Source: an uncultured Bacteroidota bacterium | Lineage (GTDB): Bacteria; Bacteroidota; Bacteroidia; Bacteroidales; CG2-30-32-10 | Assembly (NCBI GenBank): GCA_903889915.1 | Contig: CAISZK010000085.1 | Coordinates: forward strand, 1 to 33,082 | Direction: 5' to 3' | DNA length: 33,082 nucleotides | Shown here: positions 3,611 to 33,082 of the stretch, piece after piece | Layout: each line of letters starts with the position of its first letter | Numbering within the stretch: the stretch's first letter is position 1 | Program-made: the position numbers and the translations under genes | The notes under the pieces: model-generated | Told to the model about the DNA's origin: nothing | The model's input: only the letters and a program-made list of their open reading frames with translations | The model's database searches: none

Positions 3611-3712
3611 AATGTTAGCGCGTGTTTCAAACGCGTGCTACAATGAATAACAAATACTGACGGATTACAAATCCTCATAATAAAACGGAACGGATTAATT
3701 AAATCCGTTCCG
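3611..3712. repeat. Interspersed palindromic repeat, family A, copy 2
   Basis: Essentially identical to positions 1-102, including the perfect CGGAACGGATT inverted repeat at its right end. It is embedded in the composite block R. Confidence 0.85.
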
Positions 3713-3718
3713 TCGCAA

Positions 3719-3749
3719 CTTTTCCAAAGTGAAGAAAACTTTGGAAAAG
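3719..3749. repeat. Hairpin element, copy 1
   Basis: Perfect 12-bp stem CTTTTCCAAAGT / ACTTTGGAAAAG with a 7-nt GAAGAAA loop. An identical element lies at 8731-8761. Confidence 0.8.
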
Positions 3750-3845
3750 TAGTCAGAAACAAACCGAAAAAAGTCACGGAGTGACGGCAGTTTGGTAGAA
3801 AGGATAAAATGAAGAAAAATAAAGTCACGGAGTGACGACATTTTG

Positions 3846-3911
3846 AAACAACAACATTTCAAACTTTTCGAACACTATAAACTCTTCAAACTCTTCAAAC
3901 TTTTCAAACTA
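3846..3911. repeat. TTCAAAC-rich tract upstream of trpS
   Basis: A degenerate tandem run of TTCAAAC/TTCAAACT words with a period of about 9-10 nt, continuing the end of block R towards trpS. Similar tracts lie at 8430-8473, 8866-8948 and 17772-17830. Confidence 0.6.
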
Positions 3912-8544: not shown

Positions 8545-8859
8545 CAACCCTTCACCACAATAGGCACAGTAGATACATAGGCTTTCACATAGGAAAACTT
8601 CCCAATGTTAGCTCGCGTTTTAATGTTAGCGCACGTTTTCAACGCGTGCTACAATAAAAAAACAAATACTGTCGGATTACAAATCCTCATAATAAAACGG
8701 AATGGATTAATTAAATCAGTTTCGACGCAACTTTTCCAAAGTGAAGAAAACTTTGGAAAAGTAGTCAGAAATAAACCGAAATAAAGTCACGGAGTGACGA
8801 CAGTTTGGTAGAAAGCGAAAACCATGTCGAATCAAAAGTCACGGAGTGACGACATTTTG
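8545..8859. repeat. Composite repeat block R, copy 2
   Basis: Same order of parts as 3552-3845 and in direct orientation: half B repeat (8554-8600), family A repeat (8604-8724), 12-bp-stem hairpin (8731-8761) and a mini-hairpin pair (8786-8798 and 8838-8850), ending GACATTTTG. It has an 18-bp partial duplication at the start of its A unit and a changed spacer within the pair. Confidence 0.8.
8604..8724. repeat. Interspersed palindromic repeat, family A, copy 3 (decayed)
   Basis: Like 1-102 but with a partial duplicate of its first 18 bp and several changes that break the terminal inverted repeat (CGGAATGGATT against AATCAGTTTCG). The changes are not compensatory, suggesting this copy is drifting. 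Confidence 0.75.
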
Positions 8860-8865
8860 GACGGA

Positions 8866-8948
8866 AACAATTCAAACGCTTTAAACCTTTCAAACCTTTC
8901 AAACCTTTCAAACCCTTTGAACTTTACAAACCTTACAAACTTTACAAA
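8866..8948. repeat. TTCAAAC/TTACAAAC tract at the end of tcdA
   Basis: Six to eight imperfect 9-10 nt units (CAAACCTTT, TTACAAACT) running right into the stop codon of tcdA on the opposite strand. Confidence 0.6.
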
Positions 8949-9661
8949 CCCACAATATCCCTTATAACCGCCGAAGCAGCAAAACACCCAAACACCGCTG
9001 GCATGTATGAAATTGTTCCGACTCTTGATTTTTTATTCTTCTCATCCCTGATCAATTCCATGGATCCTTCGTTGACATCTTCAGGAGAAAACACCACTTT
9101 GAAACCGGAGTAAATGTCAAGTTTGTGCAGTTTCTTGCGAAGGTAGTACGACAGTTTGCAATTGTATGTTTCAGAAATATCAGCTATCCTGACAAGTGAC
9201 GGATCAAACTTTCTGCCCGTACCCAGTGAACTTATCAACCTGTAATTCCTGTGCAGGCATTCCACGATAAAATAAAGTTTTGGTGAAAGGGTATCAATGG
9301 CATCAACGACATAATCGTAATGTCCCAAAGAAAGGATCTCCGGTATTTTTTCATCAATCATGTACTCAGTGACCATTTTCAGGCGAAGTTCAGGATTGAT
9401 GTCAAGCAGTCTTTTGCCCACCACTTCTGTCTTTAGTTTTCCTTCCGTGCTGATAAGTGCAGGGATCTGCCTGTTCCTGTTGCCAGGAGCGATCCTGTCA
9501 GCATCAACAATGGTAAGACTTCCTATGCCCGCCCTGCATATCATTTCTGCTGCCATTGCGCCAACGCCTCCCAGTCCTGCAACCAGTACATGTGCATCTG
9601 CAAGTTTTTGCATTCTATCTTTTCCGATTAAAAGTTCAGTTCTTTCCTGCCAGTGTTCCAT
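8942..9661 (-). CDS. tcdA: tRNA threonylcarbamoyladenosine dehydratase (TcdA/CsdL)
   Basis: An E1-like (ThiF/MoeB superfamily) enzyme that uses ATP to cyclise t6A37 to ct6A in tRNAs decoding ANN codons. Visible are the N-terminal WQERTELLIGKD, the nucleotide-binding GLGGVGAMAAEM, the R-finger-like GNRNRQIPAL, and YDYVVDAIDTLSPK as found in TcdA. At about 239 residues it is shorter than E. coli TcdA, in line with the Bacteroidota form. The ATG at 9661 (MEHWQERTE) is chosen by family pattern; an in-frame ATG at 9673 would add four residues. The usual GAGGK-type motif reads GTGRKFDPS here. A -7 box TACATTTG lies at 9687-9694, divergent from the tRNA-Gln promoter. Confidence 0.93.
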   Translation of the reverse strand: MEHWQERTELLIGKDRMQKLADAHVLVAGLGGVGAMAAEMICRAGIGSLTIVDADRIAPGNRNRQIPALISTEGKLKTEVVGKRLLDINPELRLKMVTEYMIDEKIPEILSLGHYDYVVDAIDTLSPKLYFIVECLHRNYRLISSLGTGRKFDPSLVRIADISETYNCKLSYYLRKKLHKLDIYSGFKVVFSPEDVNEGSMELIRDEKNKKSRVGTISYMPAVFGCFAASAVIRDIVGL

Positions 9662-16939: not shown

Positions 16940-17752
16940 ATGGAATACGACCCAATTAAACGCAGTCTGGGTAAGGTTTTTAACAAATCTCCTTTTACCC
17001 GTAAAATATTTTACCACCTGCTCGATATTCTTTTATTGAGAACATGGCACATAAAAAAATCCGTGAAGGAATGGGTGAAAAAAACCAATGGTGAAGTTGA
17101 GATCCTCGATGCTGGTTCGGGCTTTGGTCAATATTCTTATTACCTGTCGGGGCTTAAATTGAAATGCAACATCACCAGTGTGGATGTAAAAGAAGAACAG
17201 GTTGAAGATTGCAATAATTTCTTCAAACAGATAGGCCGCACCAATGTTGAATTCAGCGTTGGCGACCTGACAACTTTCCGTAAAAAAGACAAATTTGATC
17301 TGATTCTTTGTGTTGATGTAATGGAGCATATATTAGAAGATGTGAAAGTTTTTGAGAATTACTGTTACTCCATGAAACCCGGAGGAATGCTTCTTATTTC
17401 CACTCCTTCCGATCAGGGTGGTTCTGACGTTCATGATCATGATGGTGAAGAATCTTTCATTGGTGAACATGTCAGGGATGGTTACGGTCTTCATGAAATT
17501 GGAGAAAAACTTTTTCAGGCAGGATTTACCAAAGTTGATGCATGGTATGTTTACGGAACACCCGGGCAAATATCATGGCGCTTATCCATGAAGTACCCAA
17601 TACAAATGCTTGGTGTGTCGAAATTATTTTTTATCATACTGCCTTTTTATTATCTCATCACTTTCCCATTTTGCCTGCTGTTGAATTGTATTGACCTTTA
17701 TGGAAAACACAAATCAGGTACCGGACTTATAGTGGAAGCGCGTAAAGACTAA
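16940..17752 (+). CDS. Class I SAM-dependent methyltransferase, membrane-associated
   Basis: A 270-residue protein with a Rossmann-type methyltransferase domain (about 45-190). It shows motif I EILDAGSGFGQYS, an acidic residue after strand 2 (TSVDVKEE), VGDLTTF, and motif IV-like FDLILCVDVMEHI with the following MKPGGMLLISTPS. The C-terminus has a hydrophobic stretch (roughly 222-250, LFFIILPFYYLITFPFCLLL) likely to sit in or on the membrane, which suggests a lipid, quinone or envelope substrate. The exact substrate is unknown. The 37-nt gap from rbfA is a TTAAACTTT repeat ending at the ATG. It precedes a LolC/E-like permease. Confidence 0.88.
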   Translation: MEYDPIKRSLGKVFNKSPFTRKIFYHLLDILLLRTWHIKKSVKEWVKKTNGEVEILDAGSGFGQYSYYLSGLKLKCNITSVDVKEEQVEDCNNFFKQIGRTNVEFSVGDLTTFRKKDKFDLILCVDVMEHILEDVKVFENYCYSMKPGGMLLISTPSDQGGSDVHDHDGEESFIGEHVRDGYGLHEIGEKLFQAGFTKVDAWYVYGTPGQISWRLSMKYPIQMLGVSKLFFIILPFYYLITFPFCLLLNCIDLYGKHKSGTGLIVEARKD

Positions 17753-17771: not shown

Positions 17772-17830
17772 TAAACATTAAACAACTTCAAACAACAAAC
17801 ATTTCAAACACTTCAAACATTCCAAACCCA
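17772..17830. repeat. TTCAAAC tract before the permease start
   Basis: Imperfect AACAACTTCAAAC / ATTTCAAAC units with a period near 10 nt, running to within 3 nt of the TTG start codon of the next gene. Confidence 0.6.
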
Positions 17831-26552: not shown

Positions 26553-28979
26553 TTATTCTTTAATAAACTTCCTCACTCCAATTCCCATTTCCGTTTTCAC
26601 TTCTACAATATAAACTCCATTTGAAAATTCTGAAGCATCTACATTTGTTATAGTACCAATTATTCTGAGAGTTTTTATAAGTTGGCCCTCGATGTTTGAA
26701 ATTTCTATTGTGGCTGGTTGCGAAGTTTCAATTGTGAAATTATCGGAGACAGGATTTGGATAAATTATGAAATTCACATCGCCATCCGGATTATCCACAT
26801 CATTTGGTGATCTGTAATATGCGTAATCTTTTACAATAATATAAGAGCCACTTTCGTTTAAACGTATCCATCCGTAAATTGAAACATTTGATGCATTAAC
26901 TTTTAATCCGACATATTTATTAATAATCCCGTTCCAAATGCCTGAACTTGTATTTGTAAAAGGAGGAACATTGTAATACAAAAACTGACGGAAAACACAT
27001 AAGTTAGAATTCCAGAAAAGATCTTTATTGATCATATCGTTTAGTCTTAAAGTGTCAGGATTAATACTTCCCTCCTGCACAGCACAAAATGCATTATTTG
27101 TCAGAGGTGTAATATAAGCATAGCCGGTTCCAAAGCCCGGACTTGAGCTGCTTTCGGTATGAATATTGAAATCCTTTATGCCATCATTATTCAAATCAAA
27201 AGTGAAATTTTCATTCGAATTATGAAAATATTCACCCAATGAAGAATCAGGTACAATATCCACATAATGCACACCGGCGCCAGTATTTTTGCCTGCTTTA
27301 AAATAGTCAGGCTGTGCCAGGCTGATAATATTTGAAGCCAGGGAAAGAGCATTTTTATCAGTGTGAATATTGTCAGCCATTGTAAGCACATAAAAACGAT
27401 AGGGAGTATTTTGTACAATCGGGTCTCCATCTTTATCCTTTGCAGAAACGGGCAGGAACATATTAATATTTGTTCCGGAGCAGTTCACCGGAATATAATT
27501 GCCCGTCTGAACAAGATTGGCGGTGTCTATATTAAATGAATCACATTCTGCCAGTTTTACTCCAATTAACCGGTATCCTGCAATTGTTGATTCATTGTGA
27601 ATGGAGTCGAATAATATTTGCATATCAGAAGGGCTTCCTGAGTCAGTGAAATCAATGGCCTGAAGCCCTAAAATCGGCACTGTTGGTGAGGACATCAAAA
27701 AAGCAGATGAAGGCGCTGACAAAGCATCAACATTCGCATGTACACCATCGGCAACACTCAAAACAAAAATTTTGTAGCTATAAGCATGTGAAATAATACC
27801 CGATGAATAATCATGCAACGTGTCAGAGCTAAAGTTTATTAAAATATTAGTTCCCGCAGGAGGTATGGAATAATAAGCTGCAGTTGGCAATGAAGAAGCG
27901 GAGTCTTTATTAAATGAACCGGCTGATGTAGATTTTACAAATATTATCCTGTAAGCTGAAATGGTTGATTCGTCCTGTATCTTATTAAAAGAAACTTTTA
28001 CACGATAAATGTTATTGCCCTGAAACGACATTGAATCCTTCAAATTCGTCACAGCCGTTGCAGGTGAAGTCAACACAATTGAATCGGAAGGTAATGACAG
28101 GTAATTTTGTGTTGAAATTATTCCATCGGCAATTGAGAGCACAAAAACTTTATAAGCTATAAACTCTGCAACCGGAGCGCCGTTTCTGTCATTGGCATTT
28201 GATGGCAGTGTATCTGCAATATTCTGCCCATTTGGAATAACACTGGTATAATTTCCGGGAGCCACATTCCGGGCTGAATCCAAAGTGAAACCGGCAGCAT
28301 CGGAAGCCTTCACAACAATTACGCGGTACTCGCCTACTTTTGATTCATCAATGGCCCTGTCAAAACTAACTTTCAAATCGCTTCCGTTTTTGTTATTCCC
28401 GACATCACTTGCTATTACATTTTCAGCAACCGACGGAATGCCGCTTCCTGCTATGATTGGCTGGTTTGAAATGGTATCGTAAGCCATATCTTTGACGGTA
28501 ATCATCATGCCATAATCACATGCAACATCCATCCTCACCCAGGCATATAAAGTGTCCTGCCCTGATATCAACCGCACCCCAATAAATTTATTATTTACAC
28601 TACACCATAATCCCGAAGAACCACCAAATGATTCACCTAATTGTTCCCCTGCTGTTGACCAAATGCAAGACGGACCTATAGTATCATGCACATTTAATGT
28701 GTCAACATAATTTGTAGAAGACACAATTGCACTATTATTTACCGGTAATACGTGAGCTGTAAAATCACCATAATAATTATAAATAACGAATTGCAGATCG
28801 GGGACAGCATCATTATTTATGTCAAAGTTGTAGGTAACAGTTGTGTTGGACGAATAATGGTAAATGATATCGGGGTTAATATCCGAATATACCACCTGTG
28901 CTGATACACCGAAACCTTTAATCAGAATTATTGTAATGAACAAAAACTTCCAAACTTTCCGGATACTCATAATCTTCAA
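26553..28979 (-). CDS. Modular T9SS cargo protein with three tandem internal repeats
   Basis: An 808-residue secreted protein. A signal peptide (to about 28) precedes an N-module (30-175), three tandem repeats of about 123 residues (183-305, 308-432, 433-557), a C-module (570-722) and a type A sorting domain (735-808: IIYPNPVSDNFTIE, then GVYIVEVKTEMG and a final KFIKE). The N- and C-modules are homologous: each has a calcium-loop-like motif (FDINNDAVPD at 52-61, FDLNNDGIKD at 594-603), a THVLPV/AYITPL strand and a GVRL...YAWVRM / GLKV...YGWIRL segment. The repeats share DES, an aYRxIxVK strand, VLSxADG and LSxPS. Likely a surface or matrix protein; no enzyme motif is seen. Confidence 0.87.
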   Translation of the reverse strand: MKIMSIRKVWKFLFITIILIKGFGVSAQVVYSDINPDIIYHYSSNTTVTYNFDINNDAVPDLQFVIYNYYGDFTAHVLPVNNSAIVSSTNYVDTLNVHDTIGPSCIWSTAGEQLGESFGGSSGLWCSVNNKFIGVRLISGQDTLYAWVRMDVACDYGMMITVKDMAYDTISNQPIIAGSGIPSVAENVIASDVGNNKNGSDLKVSFDRAIDESKVGEYRVIVVKASDAAGFTLDSARNVAPGNYTSVIPNGQNIADTLPSNANDRNGAPVAEFIAYKVFVLSIADGIISTQNYLSLPSDSIVLTSPATAVTNLKDSMSFQGNNIYRVKVSFNKIQDESTISAYRIIFVKSTSAGSFNKDSASSLPTAAYYSIPPAGTNILINFSSDTLHDYSSGIISHAYSYKIFVLSVADGVHANVDALSAPSSAFLMSSPTVPILGLQAIDFTDSGSPSDMQILFDSIHNESTIAGYRLIGVKLAECDSFNIDTANLVQTGNYIPVNCSGTNINMFLPVSAKDKDGDPIVQNTPYRFYVLTMADNIHTDKNALSLASNIISLAQPDYFKAGKNTGAGVHYVDIVPDSSLGEYFHNSNENFTFDLNNDGIKDFNIHTESSSSPGFGTGYAYITPLTNNAFCAVQEGSINPDTLRLNDMINKDLFWNSNLCVFRQFLYYNVPPFTNTSSGIWNGIINKYVGLKVNASNVSIYGWIRLNESGSYIIVKDYAYYRSPNDVDNPDGDVNFIIYPNPVSDNFTIETSQPATIEISNIEGQLIKTLRIIGTITNVDASEFSNGVYIVEVKTEMGIGVRKFIKE

Positions 28980-29054
28980 ATTTTAAATCTCACAAAAAGA
29001 AATTAACCCAATAGGCTTTACCACTTAATTAATGAAAGCTGAACATCAATTTTA

Positions 29055-30029
29055 CTATTCTTTAATAAATTTCTTCACAGCTATTCCTTTTTCGGTTCTC
29101 ACCTCCACCAAATACACTCCATCAGGCCATGCAGAAACATTTACCACGTAGGATGAATATCCAACGTGGTAAACATTTGTTTTGCTGCCGCTGGTTGCAA
29201 GGGTTTTTATTAGTTGACCTTGGATGGTGGAGATTTTTATAGTAGAGGGGGAAGGGGTTTCAATTGTTATTTGACCAATAGCAGGATCAGGAAATAAGTT
29301 AAAATTATCAGATTGATAATTAAATCCCGGTATTCCGGTTGACCCATTTATAAGTGTATCGCAAGGTGCATTCGGAAAATGTGTTTGCCAATAACAACCA
29401 ATATAAGAAATATTACTATCCTCATAACATCGAAACCAGTCCAAAAGAAATTGATCCTCTACAATACAAACAGGATTGAAATAAAAGTTCATATTGCTGG
29501 CAGCACATAAGGGATCATAACCGATCCTCTCAATCACAGGATAAGTAATTTTTTCATTATTTCCTCCAAAATTGGGACTATAATAATAAGTACAGCTGAC
29601 ATACTGAATTCTTAAATTAAAACTGCTAATATTGATGTTCTTAATGGAGTCAACTATTAACGGGGAAACAGAATCACAGGCAGAGTTACTTGTATTAATA
29701 GCTAAAGTATCGCCAACGTTTAATGTGAAGTCATACATTAATCTGAAAGTATCGTTATTGTAATAATATACCTTAGAATTTTCCTCCCTTGCAATAAGAG
29801 AACTAACAGAAACAGTATCGCCATTATAACTTATGATTTCTCTTTTTATGATCTTTGAAAGTTTTGTACTAACTATGGTATCTTTTACAACGGTATGTTT
29901 AATGTAGCCGTGAGCGGGAAATGGAAGTTCTTCCTGATAATTATAGTACCATGTAGCCCCGATTGGAAACCAGCTTTGAGATTTGGCAATCATTGGTATT
30001 AATAGAATAACGAGTAAAACTTTTTTCAT
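29055..30029 (-). CDS. T9SS cargo protein with palindrome-bearing sorting domain
   Basis: A 324-residue secreted protein. The signal peptide is MKKVLLVILLIPMIAKSQS. The body (20-235) is beta-rich with several Cys and many Tyr/Asn; I recognise no enzyme family. The type A sorting domain begins with NLFPDPAIGQITIE (Asp replaces the usual Asn of the NP motif) and ends VEVRTEKGIAVKKFIKE. It carries a 10-residue insert, HVGYSSYVVN, encoded by a palindrome (29141-29172), also found in the gene at 31710 but absent from the otherwise very similar domain at 30135. No consensus promoter box is visible; it lies 105 bp after its neighbour and its terminator. Confidence 0.88.
   Translation of the reverse strand: MKKVLLVILLIPMIAKSQSWFPIGATWYYNYQEELPFPAHGYIKHTVVKDTIVSTKLSKIIKREIISYNGDTVSVSSLIAREENSKVYYYNNDTFRLMYDFTLNVGDTLAINTSNSACDSVSPLIVDSIKNINISSFNLRIQYVSCTYYYSPNFGGNNEKITYPVIERIGYDPLCAASNMNFYFNPVCIVEDQFLLDWFRCYEDSNISYIGCYWQTHFPNAPCDTLINGSTGIPGFNYQSDNFNLFPDPAIGQITIETPSPSTIKISTIQGQLIKTLATSGSKTNVYHVGYSSYVVNVSAWPDGVYLVEVRTEKGIAVKKFIKE
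29141..29172. repeat. Palindromic in-frame insertion, copy 1
   Basis: TTACCACGTAGGAT and ATCCAACGTGGTAA are complementary at 13 of 14 positions with a GAAT loop. Aligning with the paralogous domain at 30135 shows a 30-bp (10-codon) insertion here. The core is identical to 31798-31825. Confidence 0.8.
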
Positions 30030-30084
30030 AATTCAAATTTTTAAAATTGCTCAAAATTCATTGTTCAATCCTGTTTTTTCCGGT

Positions 30085-30122
30085 AAAAAGGTTTCTCCTT
30101 TAAAAAGAAAGAAGAAACCTTT
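30085..30122 (-). terminator. Intrinsic terminator of the Asp-box cargo gene
   Basis: On the minus strand AAAGGTTTCT (30122-30113) pairs with AGAAACCTTT (30096-30087), followed by TTTTTACC. It begins 12 nt after the stop at 30135. Confidence 0.7.
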
Positions 30123-30134
30123 CGCTGCGAATTT

Positions 30135-31595
30135 TTATTCTTTAATAAACTTCTTCACGGCTACTCCCTTTTCCGTTCTCACCTCCACCAAATACACTCC
30201 ACAGGGCAATGAAGAGACATCCACATTTATTTTACTGCCGCTGGTTGCAAGGGTTTTTATTAGTTGACCCTGGATGGAGGAGATTTTTATTGTGGATTGA
30301 GGAGGGGTTTCTATTGTGAGATAGTTGATGACGGGGTTTGGATAAGTTTTTATTTGATTTAATAATTCATTTTCGTTTATTCCGGTTGTACCCTGTGGAA
30401 TTACATCTATTGTCAACATTGAATTTGTTGATTTTTGCAAATAGGTTGAATCGCAATAAGTACTTGTACACCCAATGGAATCAGTAATTGTTAGGCAAAT
30501 GTTATAATATCCGGCAGTACTGTAAGTATGGCTGGGATAAGCAACATTATCGGTTGTTCCATCACCCCAGCTCCATGTATAGGTTAATGGGGGTGTGCCA
30601 AATGCATTATTTGTTACAAAATAATGATGAGGAGTAGTTGTGTCAGCTTCCAAAGTAAACAATGCTGAACAATTCGACATTAAAATATCCGTTAGGGAAC
30701 GTTTCCAAACACCTGCATTAAGCGTTCCTGCATAGAGATAATTTCCACTAATAGCTAAAGCATAAACAGCAGTTGAAGCAGGCAATCCTGTATTAACTGC
30801 AACCCAGTTTGCGCCATTATCCATTGATAAGAAAACACCTCCTCCATTGGAACCTGCAAAAATATTTGAACCGCTTACGATAAAGGAACGAATATCATAA
30901 TTAGTTAAGCCGTGACTAACCGGTGTCCAAATTGTATCATTGTTTGATAATCGAAAAATACCTCCGGTAGTTCCAGCAAAAATATTTGTGTCCTTCACGG
31001 CTAAAGCCTGTATCCAGCTATTTTGCAAACCAGAATTTATTACCGTCCAACTTGTAGCACTATCAATTGATTTATACATACCACCACCAGTACAGAATAA
31101 ATAATCAATACCTGCATAAAGATTAGTTCCGCATGCAGCTAATACTCCCGGATAATTTGGAGGAACATTATTATTCATTTGAGTCCAAGTAATACCGCTA
31201 TCTGATGATATGGACATTCTATAGCAACCTGTAAAAATATTTGATCCAATCACTGCAAATGAAGTACCAGAAGTATATAAAACAGAAGTCCAACTTATGC
31301 CATTATCTGTTGAGTAAGCAGTATATCCTTGACCTCCGGCAAGAATATTTGATCCATAAGTTAATAATGAAGTAGTATTACTGACAATTGGTTCAGTATT
31401 CAGAGATATCCAGCTTGACCCATTATCTGAAGTTGCAAATATTCCATTTTCATCAGTTCCTGCAAAAATTTCAGAACCTTTTACAGCTAAACAATTTATT
31501 TGTCCGCCATAAGGACCATTAGTTTGAATCCACTGTGCATTTACGCTCAAGCCAAAAATGGCGAGCATGGTAGCAAGGAGTATTGTTTTTTTCAT
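30135..31595 (-). CDS. T9SS cargo protein: Asp-box beta-propeller plus PKD domain
   Basis: A 486-residue secreted protein with signal peptide MKKTILLATMLAIFGLSVNAQ. Residues about 25-310 hold repeated blades with Asp-box-like SxDxGxxW motifs (SDNGSSW, STDNGISW, SSDSGITW, SIDSATSW, SMDNGANW), each followed by an IFAGT-type strand. This gives roughly seven blades of a sialidase/BNR/YCF48-like propeller without sialidase catalytic residues. A PKD domain follows (about 315-390, YTWSWGDGTTDN, with HTYSTAGYYNICLTITD). The type A sorting domain (TYPNPVINYLTIE ... KKFIKE) lacks the palindromic insert of its neighbours. Probably a surface-displayed binding protein; the ligand is unknown. An intrinsic terminator follows. 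Confidence 0.9.
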   Translation of the reverse strand: MKKTILLATMLAIFGLSVNAQWIQTNGPYGGQINCLAVKGSEIFAGTDENGIFATSDNGSSWISLNTEPIVSNTTSLLTYGSNILAGGQGYTAYSTDNGISWTSVLYTSGTSFAVIGSNIFTGCYRMSISSDSGITWTQMNNNVPPNYPGVLAACGTNLYAGIDYLFCTGGGMYKSIDSATSWTVINSGLQNSWIQALAVKDTNIFAGTTGGIFRLSNNDTIWTPVSHGLTNYDIRSFIVSGSNIFAGSNGGGVFLSMDNGANWVAVNTGLPASTAVYALAISGNYLYAGTLNAGVWKRSLTDILMSNCSALFTLEADTTTPHHYFVTNNAFGTPPLTYTWSWGDGTTDNVAYPSHTYSTAGYYNICLTITDSIGCTSTYCDSTYLQKSTNSMLTIDVIPQGTTGINENELLNQIKTYPNPVINYLTIETPPQSTIKISSIQGQLIKTLATSGSKINVDVSSLPCGVYLVEVRTEKGVAVKKFIKE

Positions 31596-31624
31596 GAATT
31601 TAATTTTTAAAATTCTTCAATGTT

Positions 31625-31669
31625 CAATATTGCAGCCTACCAATTGATGATTGCAGGCTGCTCAATATT
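31625..31669. other. Extended inverted repeat between T9SS genes
   Basis: CAATATTGCAGCCT (31625-31638) and AGGCTGctCAATATT (31655-31669) pair with a 2-nt bulge and a 16-nt loop. No clean T-run follows on either strand. It may be a weak terminator or processing site; TTTCTATCAT words repeat just beyond it. Confidence 0.45.
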
Positions 31670-31709
31670 TTCTATCATCTTTTTTCTATCATCAATTTTC
31701 TATCTTTTT

Positions 31710-32633
31710 TTATTCTTTAATAAATTTCTTCACCGCAATTCCTTTTTCGGTTCTCACCTCAACTAAATACACTCCATCAGGCCATGCTGAAACATTTACC
31801 ACGTAGGATGAATATCCAACGTGGTCAACATTTATTTTACTGCCGTTGGTTGCAATGGTTTTTATTAGTTGATCCTGTATGGTGGAGATTTTTATAGTAG
31901 AAGGTGAAGGGGTTTCTATTGTTAGTGTGTTGCTGGCGGGGTTGGGGAAAAGTGAAAACCGGCTGGCATTTTTTATTATTTCTTCTTCACCTAAACTCCA
32001 ATTTTGACATGCATATTCTCCCATAGTTAGTGTTGTTGCACTCCCAATACTAAAACTTGTTCCAACAATTTTTATCCATCCATATTCAAAGGAAGAATCT
32101 ACTTTTATACGAACACCGAGGTATGCAGTATCGGAACTATAAGAACGATTGCAGTAGCAAGCTGAACTATCAGTCGGCGTACCCATCATCATAAAGTAAT
32201 AACTTAAATAACCTAAACTTTGCCAATTTGCATTGGAATTTATGGTGTCATTGTAATGAAATGCATAAGCCATTCCAATGCTACTTGAACAACTTCCATA
32301 AACACCGCCATTGTTAAAGCAGGTGTCATAGCGGGCAAAAGCTACATCATTGTTATTAAGCCCGGTTATCAGGCAATGATCTGTATTTTGTCCCAATGCA
32401 CCAGAGGGGGCAAGTAATGCAAATTGAAAATCCATTATACCATCATGGTTTATATCTAGAGAATAATAATGATCACTATAAGTGGTTCCATGTGCCGGGA
32501 TAGAAATTACAATACTATCGGGAGTAAATTTATAATAGTAATCGTCCACGTTATGTTGTCCTGCAATAATACTCTGTGCATGTACGAAACAGGTCAAACA
32601 AATAAATAAAATAACTAGTAAAACTTTTTTCAT
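31710..32633 (-). CDS. T9SS cargo protein with a calcium-loop-like module
   Basis: A 307-residue secreted protein with signal peptide MKKVLLVILFICLTCFVHAQ. The body resembles the N- and C-modules of the 808-residue protein: LDINHDGIMDFQF at 59-71 (a DxNxDGxxD loop), a CLITGL strand, and YLGVRIKVDSSFEYGWIKIVG before the linker. Several Cys residues in the middle may form disulfides. The type A sorting domain (SLFPNPASNTLTIE ... VEVRTEKGIAVKKFIKE) has the palindrome-encoded HVGYSSYVVN insert. Its DNA is nearly identical to the domain at 29055 over about 170 bp, whereas the bodies are unrelated. No consensus promoter box is seen upstream. Confidence 0.88.
   Translation of the reverse strand: MKKVLLVILFICLTCFVHAQSIIAGQHNVDDYYYKFTPDSIVISIPAHGTTYSDHYYSLDINHDGIMDFQFALLAPSGALGQNTDHCLITGLNNNDVAFARYDTCFNNGGVYGSCSSSIGMAYAFHYNDTINSNANWQSLGYLSYYFMMMGTPTDSSACYCNRSYSSDTAYLGVRIKVDSSFEYGWIKIVGTSFSIGSATTLTMGEYACQNWSLGEEEIIKNASRFSLFPNPASNTLTIETPSPSTIKISTIQDQLIKTIATNGSKINVDHVGYSSYVVNVSAWPDGVYLVEVRTEKGIAVKKFIKE
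31796..31827. repeat. Palindromic in-frame insertion, copy 2
   Basis: Same 28-bp core as in 29141-29172 (ACCACGTAGGAT, GAAT, ATCCAACGTGGT), but the right flank reads CA instead of AA. It encodes the same 10 residues in the same frame. Confidence 0.8.
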
Positions 32634-32922: not shown

Positions 32923-33082
32923 TTAATTTGGATTGCAAAAGTTCATATTTCCACCGTATGACTTCTTAGTGCGGCAATATGAGCTCATCCTTCCACCGTA
33001 TGACCTCTTAGTGCGGCAATATGAGCTCATCCTTCCACCGTATGACCTCTTAGTGCGGCAATATGAGTTCATCCTTCCACCG
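32923..33082 (-). CDS. Possible partial ORF of 14-residue tandem repeats
   Basis: On the minus strand an open frame enters from beyond the window end and stops with TAA at 32923-32925. It encodes three copies of MSSYCRTKRSYGGR (with S/N and R/K changes) and ends GGNMNFCNPN. The repeat length (42 nt) is a multiple of three, so any stop-free frame stays open; the plus strand is also open in one frame (PPYDLLVRQYELIL units). Coding is therefore unproven. No family recognised. Confidence 0.25.
   Translation of the reverse strand, partial: GGRMNSYCRTKRSYGGRMSSYCRTKRSYGGRMSSYCRTKKSYGGNMNFCNPN
32941..33082. repeat. 42-bp tandem repeat, cut by the window end
   Basis: Units begin TTCCACCGTATGAC at 32949, 32991, 33033 and 33075 (partial), exactly 42 bp apart and differing at only one or two bases. 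Each contains the palindrome ATGAGCTCAT (ATGAGTTCAT in the third). A degenerate unit start (GTTCATAT) precedes at 32941. There are no variable spacers. Confidence 0.9.

Follow-up and report, generated by a model that had tools for sequence, protein, structure and literature searches.

The very small dispersed repeats of cyanobacteria and the GC clusters and double-hairpin elements of mitochondria are mobile sequences of about 20–50 bp, some of which lie within coding or structural RNA genes. In Rickettsia, palindromic elements occur in intergenic DNA and also in frame within unrelated protein genes (PMC10969869; in-frame case, PMC5656822). Here we describe a 26-bp palindromic element that sits in frame in two genes encoding sorting domains of the type IX secretion system (T9SS), on contig CAISZK010000085.1 (C85) of an uncultured Bacteroidota bacterium. 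The whole stretch of DNA analysed, 33,082 nucleotides, is referred to below as the window; the genome comprises 5.55 Mb in 476 contigs. The mobility of the palindrome is well supported, and we propose, with a probability of roughly 0.62, that it is the smallest non-autonomous derivative of an element encoding a GIY-YIG nuclease, and that the nuclease most likely drives its spread in trans.

Both window copies lie on the minus (coding) strand and consist of an identical 26-mer, CCACGTTGGATATTCATCCTACGTGG, which had no match in dinucleotide shuffles of the window. The first (29144–29169, reading HVGYSSYVV; identified by exact pattern match, open reading frame and membership of a genomic family) is in the gene at 29055–30029, and the second (31799–31824; exact pattern match and open reading frame) is in the gene at 31710–32633. 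Each gene ends in a T9SS C-terminal sorting domain that carries the insert (29055–29330, Pfam Por_Secre_tail E=2e-8; 31710–31991, E=8.2e-10, also modelled with AlphaFold2; both minus strand). On the coding strand the insert reads HVGYSSYVVN, between NVD or NVY and VS. Alignment shows that the neighbouring minus-strand domains at 30135 (30135–30383; Por_Secre_tail E=3.1e-13, also modelled with AlphaFold2) and 26553 (26556–26801; TIGR04183 match) lack it and read NVDVS and NVDAS, respectively, the former providing an empty-site paralogue. An earlier note, made from the letters of this contig, had reported the ten extra residues as well as a near-perfect palindrome with a GAAT loop, and both are real: the 26-mer has two 11-bp arms around a 4-nt loop (GAAT/ATTC), with a single T.T mismatch inside. 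The note's length of 30 bp is correct for the DNA gained (10 codons) and too long for the palindrome itself, as the remaining 4 bp are duplicated target. On the coding strand, the second copy retains an intact left flank, TTGA (TCAA at 31825–31828), while its right flank has changed from TTGA to TAAA (TTTA at 31795–31798). At the first copy the right flank TAAA (TTTA at 29140–29143) is a decayed half of the duplication, and the left flank TTTA (TAAA at 29170–29173) derives from TTGA, as judged by comparison with other copies.

Removing 30 bp from the insert-bearing sorting domains yields AAAACAAATGTTGATGTTTCA or a close variant, which is found exactly in the insert-free paralogues L313 and L155. 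Because this removal restores the empty site of the paralogues, the insertion amounts to 26 bp plus a duplicated TTGA. Of the 10 copies tabulated, 7 have TTGA at either end, and one or both repeats have since changed in the window copies. Across 46 family copies from outside the repeat-rich genome UBA2365, identical 4-bp flanks (TTTA, TTCA, TTGA or TCTA) occur at 21, against 8.7 expected when right flanks are shuffled (p=5e-5); in the Cloacimonadota subset the count is 12/17 against 5.2 expected. In a comparison set, other palindromes of like shape drawn from the same stretches of sequence, such direct flanks were almost never seen. The target consensus is TTNA. Some copies are flanked by TTYA...TRAA rather than by direct repeats, a pattern that could come from template-switch correction of a near-palindrome. 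The reading frame is preserved by length, because 26 and 4 bp add up to 30. We also considered whether the composition of the element had been designed to keep frames open, and rejected this: the 30-bp unit averages 3.57 open frames out of six, versus 3.36 for shuffled sequence, so that only its length spares the frame.

The palindrome is not confined to the window. A pattern search of this genome returned 10 sorting-domain copies and 5 intergenic copies, and an eleventh, diverged sorting-domain copy is present in L341, giving at least 16 dispersed family copies in all. Among the 141 distinct sorting domains represented in the best 150 matches of this genome, 11 carry the insert, all at the same site, and 130 do not. 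The intergenic copies, mostly CCCCGTTGGATNNNNATCCTACGGGG, share the core and the T.T mismatch with the sorting-domain form; they belong to a CCCCG subfamily, whereas all 11 sorting-domain copies are CCACG and lie in one orientation. Intermediate forms with the same ends are also present, two of 29 bp and one of 59 bp, the latter in frame within an integrase gene (KNS[PRGITDSLPQPLLNENIQRGK]ADISF).

How the sorting-domain copies arose can be addressed by comparing carriers with one another. The two in the window are one insertion duplicated together with its domain, because their 78-bp downstream flanks are 94% identical and lie within a 220-bp repeat (29050–29269 and 31705–31924, 92% identity) that spans sorting domain and insert. 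Copying of one insertion between genes, the alternative offered in the earlier note, is therefore certain for this pair; it leaves the genome-wide pattern unexplained. Inheritance of a single ancestral insertion by a clade of sorting domains was ruled out, as the 11 carriers are scattered on the tree of 141 domains (10 parsimony changes, versus a shuffled mean of 10.7 and minimum of 8), and carrier L026, for example, is nearest to the insert-free domains L159 and L290. Short-tract gene conversion, in which recombination would have passed a single insertion from one paralogue to the next and the element would not be mobile today, would account for the common site, orientation and CCACG subfamily of all 11 copies, unlike the intergenic CCCCG, and for the greater similarity among carriers of about 5 codons to the left and 2 to the right of the insert. 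Yet the insert is more alike than its flanks in 53/53 carrier pairs (0.91 vs 0.63 identity), and the inserts of L015, L016, L018 and L025 are identical at 26/26 positions while their downstream flanks are 44–79% identical. L016 is a very divergent domain, with a downstream flank only 44–47% identical to those of other carriers, an insert matching at 30/30 positions and a flanking site matching at 18/21; conversion would require that transfer had ended at the insert. Insert-free domains natively hold the same ~21-bp target site of this subfamily, AAAACAAATGTTGA^TGTTTCA, and carriers track the match to it: 9 of 21 domains with at least 19 matches carry the insert, against 2 of 120 below that threshold (Fisher p=3e-7). 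Together with insertions in other genomes at many unrelated sites, accompanied by target duplication, these data make conversion an unlikely account of the copies beyond the window pair as a whole, although it may hold for some of them, given their common site, orientation and subfamily. Repeated entry at a homing-like site fits the sorting-domain copies best, and for most of them we infer it.

Outside this genome the family has a patchy distribution. The 16-base core is absent from 392 other genomes of the same order, five of the same family among them. Among GTDB genomes it is concentrated in a few, namely Saprospiraceae UBA2365, Bacteroidetes palsa_967 and Saprospiraceae 134-614, and the Cloacimonadota genomes NIOZ-UU1, CSMAG_1570, CSMAG_2405 and RS_16_45; these other palindrome-rich genomes have tens of copies, and lone core matches elsewhere in GTDB are mostly at chance level. 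In palsa_967, copies are in frame at three other sorting-domain loops, in the opposite orientation and reading PVGYSSNGV, and alignment to insert-free paralogues leaves clean 10-residue gaps. In Cloacimonadota, in-frame copies occur in a DNA methylase (L061), two DDE transposases (L084 and L110) and an integrase (L132). BLAST comparison of the L132 integrase with its homologues L254 and L220 gives a gap of exactly 10 residues, and no insert-free homologue of the L110 transposase was found in viral contigs. In L068/L112 one element is nested within another, with a net gain of 30 bp. Overall, family DNA is found in both orientations and several reading phases, in genes and between them; short open frames met in this survey were put down to chance and left aside. 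A phylum-wide search with a general family pattern mostly returned perfect palindromes in single copy, which are probably terminators. Separately, contigs C5, C6 and C9 of genome G576 hold six GC-rich palindromes of 25–32 bp whose ends are CCCCGT; these may be terminators or a separate family.

These observations bear on whether the ten residues might be native to certain sorting domains and conserved there, the palindrome being a coincidence of codons. Their presence at one site in 11 genes of this genome is what such a reading would expect, but most domains lack them, the same DNA turns up in intergenic regions as well as in genes for unrelated proteins, in either orientation and in other phases, and the intergenic copies and those in another phylum refute it; we give it next to no credence. 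Further copies and insert-free forms, which the earlier note had proposed looking for, both exist, which is at odds with a unique and universally conserved segment. Its central idea, a tiny palindromic element entering coding DNA in frame and akin to those of Rickettsia, is borne out by coding and intergenic copies with exact empty sites, and is further backed by the 4-bp direct repeats, the nested copy and the in-frame copies that another phylum has in unrelated proteins.

The earlier note had also suggested that the insert might alter export, which structural models do not support. AlphaFold2 predicts seven strands for a sorting domain whether the insert is present (mean pLDDT, the model's own confidence score, 84.5) or absent (92.7). 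Among solved structures, the fold comes closest to the mirolase C-terminal domain and to a T9SS substrate-bound complex. In the insert-bearing model, insert residues YSSYVVN take the place of the strand that KINVD forms when there is no insert, and residues 52–57, which are displaced, are modelled with low confidence. Because the modelled fold is kept, with the insert supplying the replacement strand, loss of function is not predicted.

What might move so small a sequence? Tracing an unpaired end in L132 revealed a GIY-YIG gene that lies between CCCCGTTGGAT and ATCCTACTGGG and splits the L132 integrase. A similar element is present in this genome (G000:C314, about 17280–17568): its 288 bp run from CCCCGTTGGATTAAAATAAT through an 87-aa GIY-YIG gene, the only gene present, to ATTATTTTAATCCTACGGGG, with the T.T mismatch seen in the palindrome, and interrupt an integrase between INAI and KFYYE. 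The GIY-YIG domain of this ~290-bp element is recognised with E=6.7e-17, and UBA2365 holds another such element with ends of this kind (L233). These elements are 282–300 bp long and encode 85–89 aa, a size that leaves no room for an intron. No transposase gene was found between the shared ends, where GIY-YIG nuclease genes lie instead.

Relatives of the C314 protein occur in 232 of the 395 Bacteroidota genomes searched. Where the protein is at least 50% identical to that of C314, inverted repeats of at least 11 bp bound the gene at 21/32 loci and repeats of at least 13 bp at 16/32, as compared with 2/112 and 1/112 control windows, respectively; among more distant loci, inverted repeats were found at only 3/22. 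The ends of the elements follow the form TTYA-CCCCGT(T/G)..., and end sequences co-vary with the GIY-YIG genes across many genomes. Palindromes with sister ends occur in four other genomes at 27, 22, 17 and 8 copies, versus 0 in the control. The host sites of the elements are conserved motifs, in genes named by eye from those motifs: integrases, a Y1 transposase at its HUH motif, an epimerase, S23 four-helix proteins at SNIAEG, and DUF1016 motifs. A search for carriage by plasmids or phages returned just distant GIY-YIG proteins (37–40% identity).

Several other GIY-YIG loci came to light alongside these. Distant GIY-YIG genes in L215, L224, L228 and L232 adjoin tRNA genes, and part of the tRNA is duplicated there, which is another style of insertion. 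Genes with their own inverted repeats lie in an apparent RNase P RNA gene in L267, L270 and L271 (flank ..GGAGGAAAGTCCGG, recognised by motif only). In L231, L246, L253, L260 and L273 the element comes after no more than the opening codons of an epimerase-like gene (..TGGAGF), an arrangement suggestive of duplication of a 5' part of the target. G633:C1 (about 120135–122165) holds near-identical GIY-YIG genes in tandem at a 450-bp spacing, and upstream of the split integrase in L406 is a low-complexity open frame (247–771) with repeats of the SYDRGNHSND type.

From these comparisons of ends and genes, we suggest the following scheme. The two ends of a ~290-bp element would have been joined and the gene dropped, giving a palindrome in which two 11-bp ends stand directly next to each other (CCCCGTTGGAT / ATCCTACGGGG, or CCACG...CGTGG in the subfamily of the sorting domains). 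The palindrome enters at a 4-bp TTNA target and duplicates it, adding 30 bp each time and never shifting the frame. The candidate nuclease (G000:C314) would most likely cut the target, the element ends, or both, driving spread in trans. Selection would keep coding copies only where ten added residues are tolerated, often in loops of T9SS sorting domains. The sorting-domain subfamily would have reached several paralogues at one ~21-bp site in a homing-like manner, the window copies tracing to one event through duplication of the domain. The anatomy of the family, its copies (in-frame and nested ones included), the empty sites, the duplicated target and the ends in common with GIY-YIG genes are observed; mobilisation by the nuclease, and the strand chemistry, are the steps that we infer. 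Whether the GIY-YIG elements are a new type of bacterial transposon, of ~290 bp with terminal inverted repeats and a sole 85–89-aa GIY-YIG gene, that spreads itself and palindromes down to 26 bp, we regard as evenly poised.

A number of points weigh against this scheme. Of the 7 palindrome-rich genomes examined, only 3 yielded nuclease elements with the matching GTTGGAT-type ends; palsa_967, for example, yielded none. The autonomous GIY-YIG copies are flanked by TTYA...TRAA and lack clean direct repeats, and 4-bp direct repeats were not seen at the sister-end palindromes. GIY-YIG enzymes are not known to act as transposases. A further weak point is that many of the host genomes are metagenome-assembled.

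Two other kinds of enzyme could be invoked instead. DDE elements typically have inverted ends that are short and a target duplication of constant length, here 4 bp. The palindrome could be an ordinary miniature inverted-repeat transposable element (MITE) of a DDE insertion sequence with CCCCGTTGGAT/ATCCTACGGGG ends, and the GIY-YIG genes would then have come to use similar ends independently. However, unpaired ends in the sequence examined led to a GIY-YIG gene or a ~60-bp form and never to a DDE gene, and the covariation of ends with GIY-YIG genes across many genomes also makes this improbable. Alternatively, a repetitive extragenic palindromic (REP)-type sequence could be moved by a REP-associated tyrosine transposase (RAYT). 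RAYTs mobilise palindromes of 20–40 bp (PMC3733652), and genes of the corresponding Y1_Tnp family are present in 7/7 palindrome-rich genomes. Most of those genes, however, sit next to different palindromes whose loops are 2 nt long (e.g. CCACCAACTGAAGTTGGTGG): of 36 Y1_Tnp loci scanned, one (L189) has a family copy nearby and another (L174) a degenerate copy, and the rest have other palindromes or none. The palindrome has no GTAG/CGTC foot, its flanks being TTNA/TRAA, and copies of the family carry 4-bp duplications. IS200-type transposition is not known to duplicate its target, and we consider movement by a RAYT very improbable. The loci L174, L177, L183 and L189 and other Y1_Tnp loci are themselves of note as RAYT genes amid several REP-like palindromes with 2-nt loops, such as GCGAGATGGTTTACCATCTCGC.

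The window contains other repeats. A composite intergenic repeat in three copies (1–162, 3611–3772 and 8622–8784) holds palindromes, such as CGGAACGGATTAATTAAATCCGTTCCG and GCGCGTGTTTCAAACGCGTGC, that possibly represent other palindrome families. Short intergenic arrays of 9-bp units of the TTCAAACNN type are numerous (3858–3910, 8871–8950, 17796–17827 and others), and a tandem 42-bp unit, TTCCACCGTATGACCTCTTAGTGCGGCAATATGAGCTCATCC, at 32949–33082 (3.2 copies, 97% matches) runs off the contig end.

If the proposed derivation from a GIY-YIG element is true, derivatives that each add a fixed 30 bp pass through protein genes in frame and donate ready-made loops of 10 residues, in this genome several times over to the sorting domains of the T9SS. 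The insertions also show a route by which the loops of these domains diversify, ten residues at a time. Palindromes in protein-coding DNA have hitherto been a Rickettsia curiosity with no known mobiliser; this is an independent system, far smaller and found in other phyla. Its target duplications are visible, its empty sites are exact and a candidate enzyme gene has the same ends, so that the entry of palindromes into proteins becomes directly testable. If the nuclease link holds, homing endonucleases would be joined to MITE-type transposition, and small GIY-YIG genes would gain a role as mobile elements. Searches of the open-licence literature, for the 11-mers and for GIY-YIG genes with inverted repeats or palindromes, found no such element among the papers listed, which is not proof of novelty.

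The palindrome resembles several described systems in part. With the Rickettsia palindromic elements, its closest counterparts in effect, it shares in-frame presence in unrelated proteins (here sorting domains, a methylase, transposases and integrases); those elements are set apart by description, being ~100–150 bp long with no known mobiliser, whereas here 26 bp and a 4-bp duplication come with a candidate parent gene. The dispersed, imperfect 20–40-bp palindromes of REP/RAYT systems are likewise sometimes intragenic (PMC3733652), but the present family lacks the GTAG/CGTC foot and duplicates its target, and the local RAYTs lie amid other palindromes. Like a MITE, the palindrome is non-coding, dispersed and multicopy, has short inverted ends, duplicates its target and has ends in common with a larger coding element; unlike a MITE, its ends abut with no interior, the minimum possible size, and the only coding partner found encodes a nuclease rather than a transposase. 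The cyanobacterial repeats and mitochondrial GC clusters and double-hairpin elements, with other hosts and sequences, are set apart from the palindrome by description only. For the proposed parent, a comparable case is mobE, reportedly a GIY-YIG gene within the nrdA gene of a phage. Free-standing GIY-YIG homing endonuclease genes in general are similar in that a small GIY-YIG gene splits other genes at conserved motifs, and the nearest described counterparts of the parent element are the non-intron GIY-YIG insertions in rRNA genes of the Candidate Phyla Radiation (PMC11270868). What distinguishes the elements described here from homing endonuclease genes is that terminal inverted repeats bound the gene and that gene-less, palindromic derivatives exist.

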